From Clostridia bacterium (lineage in GTDB: Bacteria; Bacillota_A; Clostridia; Christensenellales; Borkfalkiaceae), in NCBI GenBank assembly GCA_017456945.1, contig JAFTIK010000059.1:1-6479 (forward strand): DNA of 6,479 bases. The letters run 5' to 3'. Position 1 is the first letter of the stretch, and each line of letters starts with the position of its first letter. A model generated the notes under the pieces. It worked only from the letters and a program-made list of their open reading frames with translations, had not been told where the DNA came from and searched no databases. Shown here in pieces: positions 1,545-6,479 of this stretch. The translations under genes were made by a program, and so were the position numbers.

Positions 1545-1571
1545 AAAAAACAATTAACTTGCGTTTAAATT
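1545..1571 (-). terminator. Weak intrinsic-terminator-like hairpin at the end of the phage block
   Basis: On the minus strand AATT-TA-AAC (1571-1563), loop GCAA (1562-1559, a GNRA-type tetraloop) and GTTAATT (1558-1552) can form a seven-pair stem with a two-base bulge. It is followed by G and a run of six T (1550-1545). It overlaps the stop codon of the coiled-coil gene and lies just upstream of the ispG promoter, which is where a transcription boundary would be expected. The stem is almost all A-T pairs, so termination would be partial at best. It may be chance. Confidence 0.3.
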
Positions 1572-2471
1572 ATTTTCCAAAAGGGCGCGCTGTTGATACA
1601 TATAAAGCACTTGCTCGTAAGTGTCGTCGAGATAGATTATAAGTTCTCTATCGTCTTCTACTTGATACGCCGCTTCAAGCGTTGGCAAAGTATCGTAATA
1701 AGAACACACGCAATCTAAAGCCCGCTTATAGTACCCCATATCAACTAGTTCGCTCTTAGTGAATTCTCCGTTGCGAATTTCCATAAATTGTAGTAGCAAG
1801 CGCGCGTTGGCTTCGGTGATAGTGTTCCTATATCTTTGAACCTTTTCATCTACGCCGTTATTGTACTTAAAAGTTTCTCGCTTAAGTTTTTCCTGCTCTT
1901 CTTTAAGTTCAATTTTTTTTGCGTTAATTTTAGCGTTAGCAACCCCGTCGCAATACGCTTTTGCCCCGTTAAGCCGTTCGGTAAGGTTTGATTTTTCCAC
2001 GTTAAGCGCTAGTTCTTGCTCGGTAAAATCTTGCTCTGCCTTTGAAACCTTTGCGTTCTTTTCAAGTTCTAGTTCCGTCCACTTATCCAAGATTATGCTA
2101 GACCCTACTAGCCCGTTCTTTATACCTTTAAGTTCGGCTTGGCGTTGGCTTTCCGAATAAGAGTTTTCTATCTTTTCAATATAATCGCTCTTGTTTTTCG
2201 GCAACGCCGAAAGTTTTGCGTTTACGGCGGTTAACTGCTCGGTTATCTTTTGAATATACCCGCTTTCAAACTGCGTGTTTTCACTTTGAAGAAGTTGGCT
2301 TGCAAGTTCTAGTAGTTGCTCTTCCGTCTTTTCGCTAAATTCCATCTTTTGCAGTTCTAGTTCTTTTAGGTCGGCATCTTTATAGCCTTCCCTACGAATT
2401 CTGTAATAATAGTAAATATCTTGAAGAATTAAAAACATTTCTTCTTTAGTGGTAGGAGTTGCAAATTCCAT
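1554..2471 (-). CDS. Coiled-coil protein of unknown function, last gene of the phage structural block
   Basis: The 305-aa protein is not recognised by family. An N-terminal helical segment rich in tyrosine (residues 8-31, with IYYYYRIRREGY) is followed by long charged helices typical of coiled coil, about residues 35-112 and 128-215. Between them is a glycine-containing hinge (IKNGLVGSSI, residues 117-126), which suggests an antiparallel helical hairpin. The C-terminus (about 235-300) is a separate acidic, tyrosine-rich helical part with Cys254 and Cys256. There is no signal peptide or membrane segment. The ATG is one base past the stop codon of the preceding gene and is preceded by a run of six G (2483-2478) as ribosome binding site, spacing 6 nt. 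Its position after the tail gene suggests a virion part, for instance an internal or ejection protein of the short-tailed phage type, or a tail-tip protein. That is inference from place and shape, not from a recognised domain. A host protein captured next to ispG is the main alternative. Confidence 0.85.
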   Translation of the reverse strand: MEFATPTTKEEMFLILQDIYYYYRIRREGYKDADLKELELQKMEFSEKTEEQLLELASQLLQSENTQFESGYIQKITEQLTAVNAKLSALPKNKSDYIEKIENSYSESQRQAELKGIKNGLVGSSIILDKWTELELEKNAKVSKAEQDFTEQELALNVEKSNLTERLNGAKAYCDGVANAKINAKKIELKEEQEKLKRETFKYNNGVDEKVQRYRNTITEANARLLLQFMEIRNGEFTKSELVDMGYYKRALDCVCSYYDTLPTLEAAYQVEDDRELIIYLDDTYEQVLYMYQQRALLENNLNAS

Positions 2472-2472
2472 A

Positions 2473-3708
2473 TTATTCCCCCCTTATTCTGTATTTTAAT
2501 CTAAAATCTTTTATTCCGACCTTTTCGCCCTTTCCGTAAACGCTTATCTTAAAGGCGTATGACGGGATATTTAAAAAACGTTCGTTGTACCCTTTCTTTA
2601 AGTCTAAAACCTTTTTCATACAATCGCCCGTAATCTCTACTTTTAAATCGCAATTAGCGTAACAACCCAAGTAGCAAAGGGTTTTCTTGCAAGGTACGCC
2701 AAAGTCGATATACTCGCTTTCCCAAAAAACTTCAGCGTTTTGGTCGGCGCTTTCTACCACTTGATAAACCTTGTTGCCGTCGGTTATAAGGTCGGTTGCA
2801 ATATGGCAAATTTCCATATCGATTACCGATTGATTAAGACTTACGGCGTGGCAAACCAAAAGCCCTTTTCTTCCGTTGAAAATATTCCTTACCCTTGCAA
2901 AATATCTAGTTCCGTCAGTACCGCCTTCCCCGTCGTAAACGTAACCTTTGCCGATAAAGTTGCTATTTACGGGGTTTACGTAACCGCTTTCGTAAGCGCA
3001 TATAGCCCCTTGACTTATAAAAATCATCTTTCCGCCCGCAAGATACACGCTACCCTTTTCCGGCTTAACCGAAAAGGTTTGCTTTTTCAATTGATAATCC
3101 GAACGCTCGCCTGTTGGAACAAGTTCGTAAATTGCCCTTTCGGTAAAAATTACTAGCGAGTATTTGGTTGGAATAAGGGCTATTATATCCCCGTCGGTTT
3201 TTTCCGTTTGAATAAAGCCGTTCTGCTCTTTAGCGTTTAATAACGCGCTAAATTTTAAAGTGTTTTCGTCTGCTACAAACAGCATACCCGAATAAAAAGC
3301 GCACGCGTTACCCTTTGGCAGTTCAATAACTACTAGATACCCGTCGTCGCCGATATAATAGTCTTTATTTTCCGTGCCTATAATAGTTCTCATCTTCCCG
3401 TCAATCATACCTTCGCCGACGTACGTATTAACGCCTTGAATTTGTTCAACGAAAATCCAACTACCGTGTAAGTTTACGTAAAAATTGCCGTTAATATCGT
3501 GCAAAAACCACTTGTTGCCAGAGTGGTAAAGGGCGCGAACGTTACAATTTTCAGGTAAGGTTAAACCCGTTTCTTTTAGGCTTTTGCCAACCCTTAAACT
3601 CTCGCCGTCAGCCTTTAGATTATACGCCTTATCCGTTACGCTTGCAAAGTCGGTTAGCGAATAAAGGTAAGTTCTAAACGACGGTTTATTAAGACTTTTT
3701 ATTCTCAT
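2473..3708 (-). CDS. Probable phage tail nozzle/hub protein (beta-propeller-like)
   Basis: This is a long, almost wholly beta-strand protein of 411 aa, with short repeating strand-turn units over residues about 55-250 (for example NKWFLHDINGNFYV, DYYIGDDGYLVVIEL, YSLVIFTERAIYEL, GKMIFISQGAICAYESG). A separate C-terminal beta domain starts near residue 328 (FWESEYIDFG) and runs to the end. Such architecture is known for T7 gp12 and P22 gp10, the proteins that form the short tail tube or hub, and the gene order adaptor then propeller fits those phages. The role is therefore inferred as sealing and extending the portal-adaptor channel. A GTG at 3714 would add two residues, but the ATG at 3708-3706 is preferred: it forms the classic ATGA overlap with the stop codon of the adaptor gene and has AAAAGGG at a sensible 7-nt spacing. 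The protein is much shorter than T7 gp12, so it may be a reduced form. Several cysteines cluster at 341-363, which is unusual for a virion protein. Confidence 0.68.
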   Translation of the reverse strand: MRIKSLNKPSFRTYLYSLTDFASVTDKAYNLKADGESLRVGKSLKETGLTLPENCNVRALYHSGNKWFLHDINGNFYVNLHGSWIFVEQIQGVNTYVGEGMIDGKMRTIIGTENKDYYIGDDGYLVVIELPKGNACAFYSGMLFVADENTLKFSALLNAKEQNGFIQTEKTDGDIIALIPTKYSLVIFTERAIYELVPTGERSDYQLKKQTFSVKPEKGSVYLAGGKMIFISQGAICAYESGYVNPVNSNFIGKGYVYDGEGGTDGTRYFARVRNIFNGRKGLLVCHAVSLNQSVIDMEICHIATDLITDGNKVYQVVESADQNAEVFWESEYIDFGVPCKKTLCYLGCYANCDLKVEITGDCMKKVLDLKKGYNERFLNIPSYAFKISVYGKGEKVGIKDFRLKYRIRGE

Positions 3709-4265
3709 TGCCACACCCTTTTCTTGACCGTTTGATTTTTGGGTTTACAAAGAGTATAAACTGCGTCGGCGTATCTATCGTGCCACATAACGGCGTCTTT
3801 AAAACAACCTTCGCTAATTGCAAACTCGGCGGACAAGCCGTAAGACAACACCCGTTCGGGAATTTGATCGGGCGTGTAACCTATTTCGTCTTCAAGTTGA
3901 TATTTGGGCGGAAAACAAGAATATTCTACCGTTACCCGTTTTTCATTTACGGTTACGAAACGGCTATAAACCTTACCCATAACGTCCTTGCCGTTGCTAT
4001 CGTAAACGGCTAGAATTTCCAAGGGGTTAAAATTTAAGTTTTCGTAATACACCTTGCCGTCTTCAGAGTTTAGCGTTTGAGTTATTCGCATAGGAATAAA
4101 CGAGCAAGCAAGTTCGTTTATGACTAGGTTGCAAAGCCTTAATAGCCTGTCTACGTCTTTAACCGTCTGTTCGCTTGCGCTAGTCGTTTTGCCGTCAAGA
4201 TACTCTACTACGTCTTCTCTACCGATTTGAGTAGCGGAAATTTTAATTATATCTTTTACAGTCAT
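3705..4265 (-). CDS. Probable phage head-tail adaptor (connector) protein
   Basis: The 186-aa protein has helix-strand-helix layout: N-terminal helices (VKDIIKISATQIGREDVVEYL, then residues 31-55), a central beta-rich part (about 60-117, including VYYENLNFNPLEILAVYD and RVTVEYSCFPP), and C-terminal helices (IPERVLSYGLSAEFAISEG and the WHDRYADAV segment). This is the general plan of phage connector proteins that dock under the portal, including the P22 gp4 and T7 gp11 type. Position between the capsid and propeller genes supports the role. The start at 4265 has an AAGGAG site, 5 nt spacing after GGAG. The stop codon overlaps the next ATG by 4 nt (ATGA), indicating coupled translation. The upstream gap holds a strong hairpin that may set its expression relative to the capsid. 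No catalytic motif is seen. The family assignment is by layout and neighbours and would need a profile search. Confidence 0.72.
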   Translation of the reverse strand: MTVKDIIKISATQIGREDVVEYLDGKTTSASEQTVKDVDRLLRLCNLVINELACSFIPMRITQTLNSEDGKVYYENLNFNPLEILAVYDSNGKDVMGKVYSRFVTVNEKRVTVEYSCFPPKYQLEDEIGYTPDQIPERVLSYGLSAEFAISEGCFKDAVMWHDRYADAVYTLCKPKNQTVKKRVWQ

Positions 4266-4283
4266 ATTTTCTCCTTTTTATCA

Positions 4284-4314
4284 ATATTGCCGAGCCTTTT
4301 CGGCTCGGCAATAT
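4284..4314 (-). promoter_or_regulatory. Perfect 13-bp hairpin between capsid and adaptor genes
   Basis: The arms 4284-4296 and 4302-4314 are exact reverse complements (minus-strand 5' arm ATATTGCCGAGCC) around a five-base loop, GAAAA on the transcribed strand. The hairpin begins 9 nt after the capsid stop codon and ends about 9 nt before the GGAG site of the adaptor gene. On the transcribed side it is followed by TGATAAAAAGG, not a T run, so it is not a standard intrinsic terminator in that direction. On the opposite strand it is followed by six T. The likely role is an RNA 3'-end stabiliser for the capsid message, or a partial attenuator that keeps capsid output above that of the tail genes. 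Confidence 0.8.
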
Positions 4315-4323
4315 CTAAATTTT

Positions 4324-5502
4324 TTAGTTTTCTACTATACCCGAAAGCATACCTTGTCCGTTAGGACGGGAACACATAAGTTCAGCGTATTTAACCAAAG
4401 TTGCAGTATAGACGGGTTTACCCGCAACCTGTTTTAACACCTTACCGTCGTCGTCGGAAAGCCATTGCCAGTCGCAAAGTTGATGTAAGGTAAAGTCGTT
4501 AGTATTAAGCAAATACATAGTTGACATAGGACAAAATCTATCTGCTATAATAGGAACGCCGTTATAGGTCATTGCCTTGTAACCGCCCATAAGTTCCATC
4601 ATACCTATCTTGGTGTTATTATTGTTAAAGATTTTTTGCAAACTTCTTCTTACGCCCCAAGAACAGATGATAACGTTTGGCGCGCTACCACTTCTCGCTT
4701 CGATATTATCGAACGCCGTTTGTAAAATCATTTCGTTAAGATTGCCTACCGCATTTTTAACGTATGGTTCCATCCATTTGTTTTCATCACGATACACCCC
4801 GTAAAGGCTTGCGGAGTTGGTGTTGAAAATTGCTTTAAGACCGGTAAGTTCGTTGTTACGGCAACCTTTCATTACGATTTCCGTTCCGCTATCCATTGCT
4901 TCATCTGCAAGCGACGCGCCCGAAACGCGCATAGTATTGCTACTTCTGTCTATGGAAAGAATTTTTCTTCCGCTATGTTCTTCTATCTTATTGCCTTGTT
5001 CGTCGTAGAAATCAACGCACATGCCTTCCATAAGATTTATAGGGGTATCCACGGTAATTTTACCTTCTTCAACGTAAACGATTTTTGCAAGAGTACCCGA
5101 ACCGTCGCCGAATAACATTCTGCCGAAGTTGTACTGGCTGGATTTTACAAGGCTTTCCATCTCTTGATTAAGTAGGTTTACGAACGCGCCCGAGTTGTTT
5201 TCCGAAGCCCTAATCGCCTTGTCGGAAATCTCTATAACGCCGTAAAGGTTTTTAAGCGTGGATACGAACTGCGTGTATTCGGTTGCCTTTGCAGTAGGTA
5301 GTTCGCCGTCTTCCGTGCCTGCGCTTATACCCCCGTTAACGCCGTGCAATGCAAGTTGTTTTACGTCCTTTCCGTAAACGTGATCGGAATTTTTTTCGAT
5401 CATTGCAAGAAAGGGGTTTACGTGGTTGTTAAGTTGTTCGCTAACGGCGTCAAGATAATACGATTTTAGCGCGCCGTCTGCATTAGATAATGTTACTGCC
5501 AT
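4324..5502 (-). CDS. Phage major capsid protein, HK97 fold
   Basis: The 392-aa protein is the shell subunit of the particle. Visible parts, in order: an N-arm (1-40), an E-loop region (about 45-85, with GVNGGISAGTEDGELPTAKA), a strand and the long spine helix (LKNLYGVIEISDKAIRASEN at 83-102, then AFVNLLNQEMESLVKSS at 106-122), and the junction FGDGSGTLAKI at 131-141. An inserted beta-barrel-like segment follows (about 142-213, with INLMEGMCVDFYDEQGN and SSNTMRVSG), then the A-domain region (about 250-345, NVIICSWGVRRSLQKIF, MTYNGVPIIADRFCP) and a C-terminal strand. The segment from FGDGSG through the insert to ELTGL matches the pattern of many Gram-positive phage capsids. There is no N-terminal protease-cleaved delta domain; a separate scaffold gene lies just upstream. 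The start at 5502 has AAGGAG with good spacing and lies 12 nt after the scaffold stop codon. Encapsulin is a possible confusion but is excluded by the portal, scaffold and adaptor neighbours. Confidence 0.9.
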   Translation of the reverse strand: MAVTLSNADGALKSYYLDAVSEQLNNHVNPFLAMIEKNSDHVYGKDVKQLALHGVNGGISAGTEDGELPTAKATEYTQFVSTLKNLYGVIEISDKAIRASENNSGAFVNLLNQEMESLVKSSQYNFGRMLFGDGSGTLAKIVYVEEGKITVDTPINLMEGMCVDFYDEQGNKIEEHSGRKILSIDRSSNTMRVSGASLADEAMDSGTEIVMKGCRNNELTGLKAIFNTNSASLYGVYRDENKWMEPYVKNAVGNLNEMILQTAFDNIEARSGSAPNVIICSWGVRRSLQKIFNNNNTKIGMMELMGGYKAMTYNGVPIIADRFCPMSTMYLLNTNDFTLHQLCDWQWLSDDDGKVLKQVAGKPVYTATLVKYAELMCSRPNGQGMLSGIVEN

Positions 5503-5514
5503 AATTTCTCCTTA

Positions 5515-5937
5515 TTAATTGTTAAAATATTCTTTGGCAAGTTGCCCTGCCTGCTTAAAGGTTTTAGGACGCTCGGTCGGCGTTTTTACGCCCATACCTA
5601 CGCCGTCAAGCACGATTGCCGTTTGTTTCTTTTCAAGTAGTTCTTTAATGTAGTCTTTTAGCACGTCTTGTTTGTCTAGCGTTTGTTCAGGCTTTGCAGT
5701 TTCCGCTTGTGTCGGGGGTTTTTCCTTATCGACGGCGGTTAGCGCGCTTTCCAACTCCTTTATCTTCTGACAACGCTTGGTAAACTCAGATTCTAAGGCG
5801 TTGTAAGCCGTTAACAGCGACTCTGCGTCCTTAAACTTTCCGTATGAGACCTTGTTTGATTGCTCGCCCCCGCTTTCATTTTCAGTTTCAACGGGGTTAG
5901 CCGTATTTTCGGTTTGTTCAACGTTAAGTTTATCCAT
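5515..5937 (-). CDS. Probable capsid scaffolding protein
   Basis: The 140-aa, highly charged protein sits between portal and capsid genes, the standard place for a scaffold that templates capsid assembly and leaves before or during DNA packaging. Residues 1-30 are polar and low in complexity, likely disordered. Residues 34-68 form a helix or coiled coil beginning GKFKDAESLLTAYNALESEF. Residues 69-88 are a proline-, threonine- and glutamine-containing linker. Residues 89-104 form another helix. The C-terminus (107-140) carries a glycine turn and the segment TPTERPKTFKQAGQLAKEYF, which by analogy with known scaffolds may be the coat-binding end. The ATG at 5937 overlaps the portal stop codon by 8 nt and has GGAG with 9 nt spacing. 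No protease motif is seen, so it is not a protease-scaffold fusion. The role is inferred mainly from position, size and composition. Confidence 0.75.
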   Translation of the reverse strand: MDKLNVEQTENTANPVETENESGGEQSNKVSYGKFKDAESLLTAYNALESEFTKRCQKIKELESALTAVDKEKPPTQAETAKPEQTLDKQDVLKDYIKELLEKKQTAIVLDGVGMGVKTPTERPKTFKQAGQLAKEYFNN

Positions 5938-6479
5938 TTAATTTTTCTCCTTTATTTTTTATTCTTTCTCTATGCGCAAAAATATGCGCGTAAATTCTTT
6001 GTTTTTGGTTTTCCGTAAGGCTTGCGTATTCGCTTAGAACGTACCTTACGTGTTCGTCAACGTGAACTTCGTCGTCGTCAATTTCTTCTATTTTCTGCTC
6101 TGCTTTCCGAAGTTCTTCGTTTTCCTTTTGCGCCCTTTCTTCTTGTAGCCTTGCTAGCCCCTTTTGGTAATCTAGGTCTTTATACCCCAAGAGAGAAAGC
6201 ACTTTTTCTTTGGTTGACGGGCGAAGTTTACCATCGTCGTCGTGCAACAATCCACTTTCGTAAAGCCTAAAAATCATATCCTTTTTCTGACTGTTTGAGT
6301 ATAGCAGTTCGTTCTCGTTTTCAAGATAAACGTCGTCAGACTTAAAGGTGTTTTTGTCTGCGTAAAGCACTTTTACTTTATTCTGCTCATCGTTTACCCT
6401 TACGGCTTTTACCCCTGCTAAAAATTGAGCGAACAGTCTTACCGTTTGCTTTGCTACTTCTCGGAACGCACGCCTAATA
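5930..6479 (-). CDS. Phage portal protein, C-terminal part (runs off the window)
   Basis: The frame is open without a stop from base 6478 to the TAA at 5930-5932, giving 182 residues of a larger protein. The GTG at 6370 could be read as a start for a 146-aa protein, but 36 further codons upstream stay open and read sensibly (IRRAFREVAKQTVRLFAQFL), so a 5'-truncated gene is preferred. Portal proteins form the dodecameric DNA entry channel at one capsid vertex. Recognisable here is the C-terminal portal pattern ENELLYSNSQKKDMIF, then ESGLLHDDDGKLRPSTKEKVLSLLG (fragment residues about 55-98). An acidic coiled-coil tail follows (104-135, ending EEIDDDEVHVDEH), then a His-containing helix (DEHVRYVLSEYASL, YAHIFAHRERI). 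Gene order portal-scaffold-capsid supports the call. The clip, stem and wing regions lie outside the window, so completeness cannot be judged. Confidence 0.75.
   Translation of the reverse strand, partial: IRRAFREVAKQTVRLFAQFLAGVKAVRVNDEQNKVKVLYADKNTFKSDDVYLENENELLYSNSQKKDMIFRLYESGLLHDDDGKLRPSTKEKVLSLLGYKDLDYQKGLARLQEERAQKENEELRKAEQKIEEIDDDEVHVDEHVRYVLSEYASLTENQKQRIYAHIFAHRERIKNKGEKLNG

Follow-up and report, generated by a model that had tools for sequence, protein, structure and literature searches.

The analysed window, i.e. the whole 6,479-nt stretch of contig JAFTIK010000059.1 (a Clostridia bacterium of the family Borkfalkiaceae), carries directly upstream of ispG a block of capsid and short-tail genes, which we consider, with good confidence, to be the right-hand part of a gene transfer agent (GTA) that is ancient and passed on vertically: the head of a short-tailed phage, domesticated and now kept as a core host trait. 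Its genes occur in nearly all genomes of a large family and are inherited like those of the host, and the particle is most likely used by the bacteria to move their own DNA between cells. Furthermore, we lean slightly towards the broader proposition that a short-tailed GTA is an order-wide core trait of gut Clostridia, which would have been domesticated before the sampled families split, kept in one large family as widely as an essential isoprenoid gene, carried through several relocations (with the terminase split off but maintained), and would be the as yet unnamed source of Christensenellaceae GTA-like packaging in human faeces. A domesticated, GTA-like system had already been put forward by a sequence-only reading of the window, and is borne out here by a complete packaging unit in relatives, host genes on both sides, near-universal presence, congruence with rpoB and purifying selection.

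Gene content of the packaging unit

The unit in full was reconstructed from the loci of relatives in Clostridia metagenome-assembled genomes (record titles Clostridia, Clostridiales, Eubacteriales, Firmicutes, Christensenellaceae and Candidatus Scatosoma). The scan of genome contigs yielded 198 capsid relatives, from which the best 80 were kept, and the counts over the 52 loci with room on both sides thus lean towards close relatives. In the longer loci the unit spans ~8 kb and is ordered as large terminase subunit (TerL), small terminase subunit (TerS, ~98 amino acids (aa)), portal, scaffold, capsid, adaptor, nozzle and helical protein. TerL, TerS, portal, scaffold, capsid and adaptor were present in 52/52 of the roomy loci and the nozzle in 51/52, in a single order and on a single strand except in L025 (which has no proper nozzle match). 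The helical protein of the ispG-linked type was found in 16/52, its position being taken by a gene of ~160-170 aa in several of the other family loci. The terminase that the sequence-only reading had proposed to look for upstream is hence present in relatives: the TerL of one of them matches terminase families, and the motifs that we take to be the Walker (ATPase) and nuclease ones are invariant in 7/7 aligned sequences. All ten TerS members compared match the terminase small-subunit model phrog_309; for the one inspected the alignment is confined to positions 187-240 of the 319 in the model, and the helix-turn-helix (HTH) domain PF03592 (Terminase_2) was not detected in it. The phage-like relatives L148 and L149 possess a ~250-aa TerS with PF03592, encoded directly upstream of TerL. 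We infer that the TerS described here may bind DNA without sequence preference. An encapsulin (an HK97-fold shell that lacks terminase and portal) was rejected on account of TerL and portal being found in 52/52 roomy loci. As a separate observation, one locus (L136:8035-10379) harbors two tandem capsid genes within one cluster.

In the window itself only the portion from the portal end through the helical protein is visible. All genes lie on the minus strand and, as first read from the letters, the consecutive capsid and short-tail genes upstream of ispG are co-oriented with it and uninterrupted, neighbouring genes overlapping or nearly abutting. The portal is represented by its C-terminal 182 aa (5930-6478, -), its frame being open at the window edge and the gene running beyond it; it shares 44-71% identity with its counterparts in the 17 ispG-linked loci for which a portal was matched, and a full-length homologue matches P22_portal (PF16510, E 2e-16) and the portal family phrog_156 (E 3e-37). 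The scaffold-like protein (5515-5937, -) owes its identity to its position (between portal and capsid in 52/52 roomy loci) and to a weak match to the head scaffolding family phrog_3760 (E 0.028). It is succeeded by a major capsid protein of podovirus type (4324-5502, -; phrog_14242, E 6e-55), a homologue of which matches NCBIfam NF033394 capsid_maj_Podo (E 1e-75), and by a head-tail adaptor (3705-4265, -), recognised by the conserved order and by a homologue that matches phrog_2377 (head-tail adaptor Ad1, E 6e-6); family searches of the window proteins gave zero matches for the window adaptor itself. The following gene (2473-3714, -) is predicted to encode a beta-propeller with the P22 gp10 / T7 gp12 fold, which on this model is a short-tail nozzle resembling P22 gp10. 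The last of the six (1554-2471, -; DUF7934, PF25588, E 5e-8) encodes a helical protein modelled as a long helical hairpin (pLDDT 89), for which a fold search gave nothing above helical noise. The identities originally given to portal, capsid, adaptor, nozzle and helical protein stand, and that of the scaffold stands with the qualification just made. The good ribosome binding sites noted at the outset were recovered upstream of the scaffold, capsid and adaptor starts (AGGAG) and of the helical gene (a GGGGGG run), while the propeller gene (GTG start) has a weaker AAAAGGG.

Distribution, inheritance and chromosomal setting

The counts by family, genus, order and class start from the genome of a relative (G001, locus L040). 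Within the family the capsid was found in 189/201 genomes, as compared to 191/201 of the same set for ispG; it is almost always single-copy, none of the family matches listed has an internal stop, and the family genomes with a match are of small size (1.0-2.7 Mb). TerL was recovered from 43/44 genus genomes. In the order, which we take to be GTDB Christensenellales, 173/297 genomes carry the capsid, and in the class 26/391; the narrower searches had already included 14 of these 26, and several of the other 12 resemble, by eye, ordinary phages or prophages.

The inheritance of the cluster was assessed by 'quick' trees (without bootstraps) of 27 genomes, G124, G849 and G850 having been excluded from an initial 30 for fragmentary or missing rpoB. 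The tree of concatenated TerL, portal and capsid recovers 19/24 rpoB splits (2,000 permutations of the labels gave a maximum of 3), and the single-gene trees 16 (TerL), 18 (portal) and 17 (capsid) of the 24, the permutation maximum being 4 when these are included. Distances within the family correlate with those of rpoB at r 0.92 for the concatenation, 0.93 for portal and 0.85 for TerL, and the nine ispG-linked genomes group together whether the tree is built on rpoB, on TerL or on the concatenation. Furthermore, the GC content of the cluster (33 to 64%) tracks that of its flanks (r 0.945, 50 loci). As far as the compared sequences indicate, the cluster is inherited vertically with its host. 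The dN/dS values were computed on independent pairs (78-99.3% protein identity, dS <2.5), a choice that favours conserved pairs. For capsid and portal, the two genes for which this comparison had been recommended, the medians are 0.09 (24 pairs) and 0.11 (23), and for the remainder 0.08 in TerL (22), 0.14 in TerS (7), 0.13 in the adaptor (3), 0.18 in the nozzle (2) and 0.24 in the scaffold (5), the host gene ispG having 0.08 (3 pairs) and the helical protein zero usable pairs. All seven cluster families with usable pairs are under purifying selection.

The gene that borders the block in the window, ispG (GcpE; 457-1497, -; PF04551, E 2e-136), belongs to the host flank and lies outside the particle genes; the gap that separates it from the helical gene was first given as 57 nt and amounts to 56 nt by the coordinates (1498-1553), and a ribosome binding site is not obvious in the sequence before its start. 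In 18/20 testable loci (those whose helical gene is full-length and followed by 1 kb or more of sequence, loci without such room being uncounted) ispG follows 23-260 nt downstream on the same strand, the exceptions being L001 and L006; five loci with a weak helical match (34-68 bits), at least 1 kb of room and no ispG (L045, L046, L050, L052 and L133) were left out of this count. A conserved cluster upstream of ispG, for which a comparison of related genomes had been proposed, is thus seen in these loci, but ispG is not its only place: in the majority of the family loci fetched, the cluster lies elsewhere. Where the flanks were checked with Pfam they consist of host genes (MatE transporter in L015, topoisomerase subunit A in L005, GroEL and racemase in L131), the names of the other flank genes having been read by eye from lists of open reading frames (ORFs).

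In other family loci the cluster adjoins three genes, which encode a secreted protein of ~850 aa, a product of ~170 aa and a second secreted protein; in L136 the ~170-aa neighbour is sigma-region-4-like and the second secreted one has an SH3 domain. Among 39 loci with TerL and upstream room (and without ispG or a full-length helical gene), the three genes lie at most 6 kb from TerL in 34 and the sigma-like gene in 37. The three-gene set was found in 3/11 only of the ispG-linked loci with room (L010, L014 and L032), and seven further ispG-linked genomes keep the three together at another place, with no TerL within 1.5 kb. This unit, the third gene of which is SH3-like (~255 aa), stays together across the order, usually by TerL and sometimes alone (L006:1533-5901, L032:2015-6059 and L017:1915-6172; also L227-L231, L233 and L239). 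Its members may possibly regulate the particle and act as its partners at the surface, or be merely old neighbours. The simplest history would comprise one ancestral place, the gain of ispG on the right and a subsequent break on the left. In a further lineage (L130, L131) the cluster is located without TerL near rpsT-, racemase- and groES-groEL-like genes, and a single open TerL remains beside the sigma-like and secreted genes. Out of 18 genomes in which TerL was sought, 16 carry one uninterrupted copy of the type found in the element, and in eight of these (G252, G272, G307, G333, G345, G535, G586 and G671) it lies away from the capsid cluster.

Reduced clusters were observed as well. In L137, L138 and L140 (and in L139 by hidden Markov model only) a scaffold-capsid-adaptor-nozzle-like cluster lies by serC/serA-like genes (by eye), without portal or TerL; the location of the portal was not found in these four, and TerL is alone on another contig in 3/4 of the genomes (TerL loci L163-L165). 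L143 (G810, a 2.3-Mb genome) has a related capsid gene, an opposite-strand propeller-sized gene and serC-gapA-pgk-like neighbours (by eye), with no portal match, and is perhaps another domesticated remnant.

At its far end the window holds the first 156 aa of a gene downstream of ispG (2-469, -), likewise host flank, which had been called polC. That name did not hold in relatives, whose gene after ispG encodes ~508 aa with OB and DEDD-exonuclease domains (PF01336, PF00929); the over-cut-off domains of a homologue included neither PHP nor polymerase domains, and the protein matches the PolC-type exonuclease 2p1j (E 1e-35). By its domains it is an exonuclease protein resembling the N-terminal half of PolC. 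The homologues span 1,524-1,617 nt in 16/17 cases (L040:15056-16582 and 16 further loci, L013 being shorter) and are followed, in the loci read by eye, by rimP-nusA-ylxR-infB-like genes.

Competing explanations

The six genes are of phage descent, the same capsid is carried by 16 viral-labelled contigs of IMG/VR, and a resolvase gene lies within 5 kb of the cluster in two family loci, all of which would suit an ordinary prophage whose right end abuts ispG by chance. The sequence-only reading held that such a prophage fits the window equally well; we now consider it very improbable and, for this lineage, refuted because of the distribution, the block being near-universal, nearly single-copy and rpoB-congruent, and TerL being anything but patchy in the genus. 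The marks by which a recent prophage was to be recognised (integrase, replication and lysis genes upstream, and relatives with an empty, otherwise intact locus) were looked for and not found: reading the ORFs of four ispG-linked loci of 21 kb by eye revealed none of these genes (no profile search for replication was made), and a tyrosine integrase (PF00589) occurs within 10 kb of the cluster in 0/15 genomes (serine recombinases not being searched genome-wide), the nearest one on the cluster's contig lying ~20 kb off. The two longest viral-labelled contigs (L095 and L096) continue past the capsid into a lipoprotein-like gene and type I restriction-modification genes, and are probably the chromosomal cluster, interrupted or without its right end. 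With P22- and T7-like podoviruses the element shares the portal family PF16510 and the nozzle fold, and differs from them in having no recognised replication, integration or spike genes and in its sequence divergence: in 50,697 phage records the capsid had 14 matches (best 29% identity) and full-length TerL matches reached ~30%. Capsid-forming satellites, such as those resembling phage-inducible chromosomal islands (PICI-like), are known to possess a small set of packaging genes in place of a complete phage genome. To a satellite of this sort, fixed in the lineage, we give next to no probability in view of the vertical pattern, the separation of TerL in eight genomes and the lack of a nearby tyrosine integrase (the only class tested).

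An unlikely, though less remote, alternative is a domesticated DNA-packing particle that transfers no genes and serves DNA disposal or storage, killing, or the release of DNA for repair or biofilm. It draws on the fact that TerL, portal and nozzle are kept, yet in the unit of the window's family no gene for fibres, lysis or receptor binding was recognised, a lack that counts against a GTA too. The retention of nozzle and adaptor in nearly all roomy loci nevertheless suggests delivery, and sister lineages do possess BhlA and Phage_holin_1 holins after the nozzle. Moreover, L089 (11968-16660) encodes after the nozzle a tail protein of 796 aa (phrog_5302, E 2e-32) and a protein of 683 aa that has no family match, both of which are candidates for the fibre or receptor-binding components that the window's lineage lacks. 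The Phage_holin_1 family was detected in 4/24 genomes, with one additional 20-bit match, none being convincing in the window's family (short query).

Several further observations weigh against the GTA reading. The particle, its packaged DNA and the transfer are predictions from the genes, and a holin was undetected in 20 family genomes bar one 20-bit match (again with a short query). Capsid-alone distances within the family correlate with rpoB at only r 0.52, which leaves some exchange of capsid genes possible. No capsid match was obtained in 12/201 family genomes (G191, which lacks capsid and ispG matches, has TerL pieces), three have two capsid matches and a few matches are fragments; among the 44 genus genomes G076 and G092 have a TerL that is split in two, and an order-level capsid (G475) has an internal TGA. 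Either gene loss or decay occurs, or the assemblies are incomplete. Two loci out of 10 are without a TerL of the element: in G631 it matches only in a prophage-like locus and in G810 only as a 47-bit fragment. The resolvase genes mentioned above comprise a resolvase-type recombinase 4.4 kb from the cluster in L079 (17350-17949, -) and a homologue 2.4 kb from it in L038 (15383-15982, -), the sole matches in a one-sequence search of all fetched loci, and are probably unrelated insertions.

Proposed mode of action and known agents

Under the GTA reading, TerL, together with a TerS unable to choose a pac site, would pack host DNA, chosen nearly at random, into a small scaffolded capsid, and portal, adaptor and nozzle would form the short tail. 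The particles would leave by lysis through genes encoded outside the cluster, and recipients would import the DNA, possibly through ComEC, and recombine it. ComEC is present in 24/24 genomes, which makes DNA uptake possible (in a permissive sense only). The sigma-like gene also occurs in 24/24 genomes, at most 1.5 kb from TerL in 15; being sigma-region-4-like and linked to TerL in most lineages examined, it may switch on production, and is a candidate activator of the particle.

That short-tailed versions were undescribed in Clostridia, as had been supposed, turned out to be out of date: FpGTA of Faecalibacterium prausnitzii is presented, in the available part of its report, as the first podovirus-like GTA (PMC12946183, January 2026). 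According to the same part, its operon I (10.5 kb, ten ORFs) is present in 12/12 Faecalibacterium genomes and absent from Gemmiger and Subdoligranulum, a second operon comprises baseplate, fibre and lysis genes, and its TerS is without an obvious DNA-binding domain. As far as this partial account allows, our element resembles FpGTA in being a compact operon of gut Clostridia with TerS, TerL, portal, scaffold, capsid and short-tail proteins and without replication genes, and differs in that TerS comes after TerL (upstream of it in FpGTA), in its eight genes and in its order-wide reach, the likeness being one of gene content and description. The name Faecalibacterium does not appear among the 120 listed of 268 matches. 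The kind is already known, and the present element is alike in kind and distinct in gene order, size and reach. The available text also reports GTA-like packaging in Christensenellaceae (written HMG11616, QANA01) in 3/25 events, with no operon named there (PMC12946183); our element is a candidate source of these events. With the alphaproteobacterial agents, as described in the parts of the literature at hand, it shares an HTH-less small terminase, mainly vertical inheritance and purifying selection (PMC6854486, PMC7947584, PMC9638019, PMC6821227): the TerS of RcGTA (gp1) has no N-terminal HTH and binds DNA non-specifically (PMC6854486, PMC7947584), and GafA, the RcGTA activator, contains sigma-like DNA-binding parts (PMC9638019) that recall the sigma-like gene found here. 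It differs from RcGTA by its short P22-type nozzle and the lack of recognised long-tail genes.

GTAs outside Alphaproteobacteria are few. The gene set defined here can be used for tracing the origin of the particles with host DNA that faecal viromes have already revealed, and viral catalogues are suggested to hold such chromosomal clusters as viruses. If our interpretation is accurate, an order-wide, vertically inherited GTA in gut bacteria would represent a second such case, comparable in scale to the RcGTA family, this time with a short-tailed, P22-like nozzle, and would provide a new lineage in which to ask what keeps genes under selection when using them is probably lethal to the producer.

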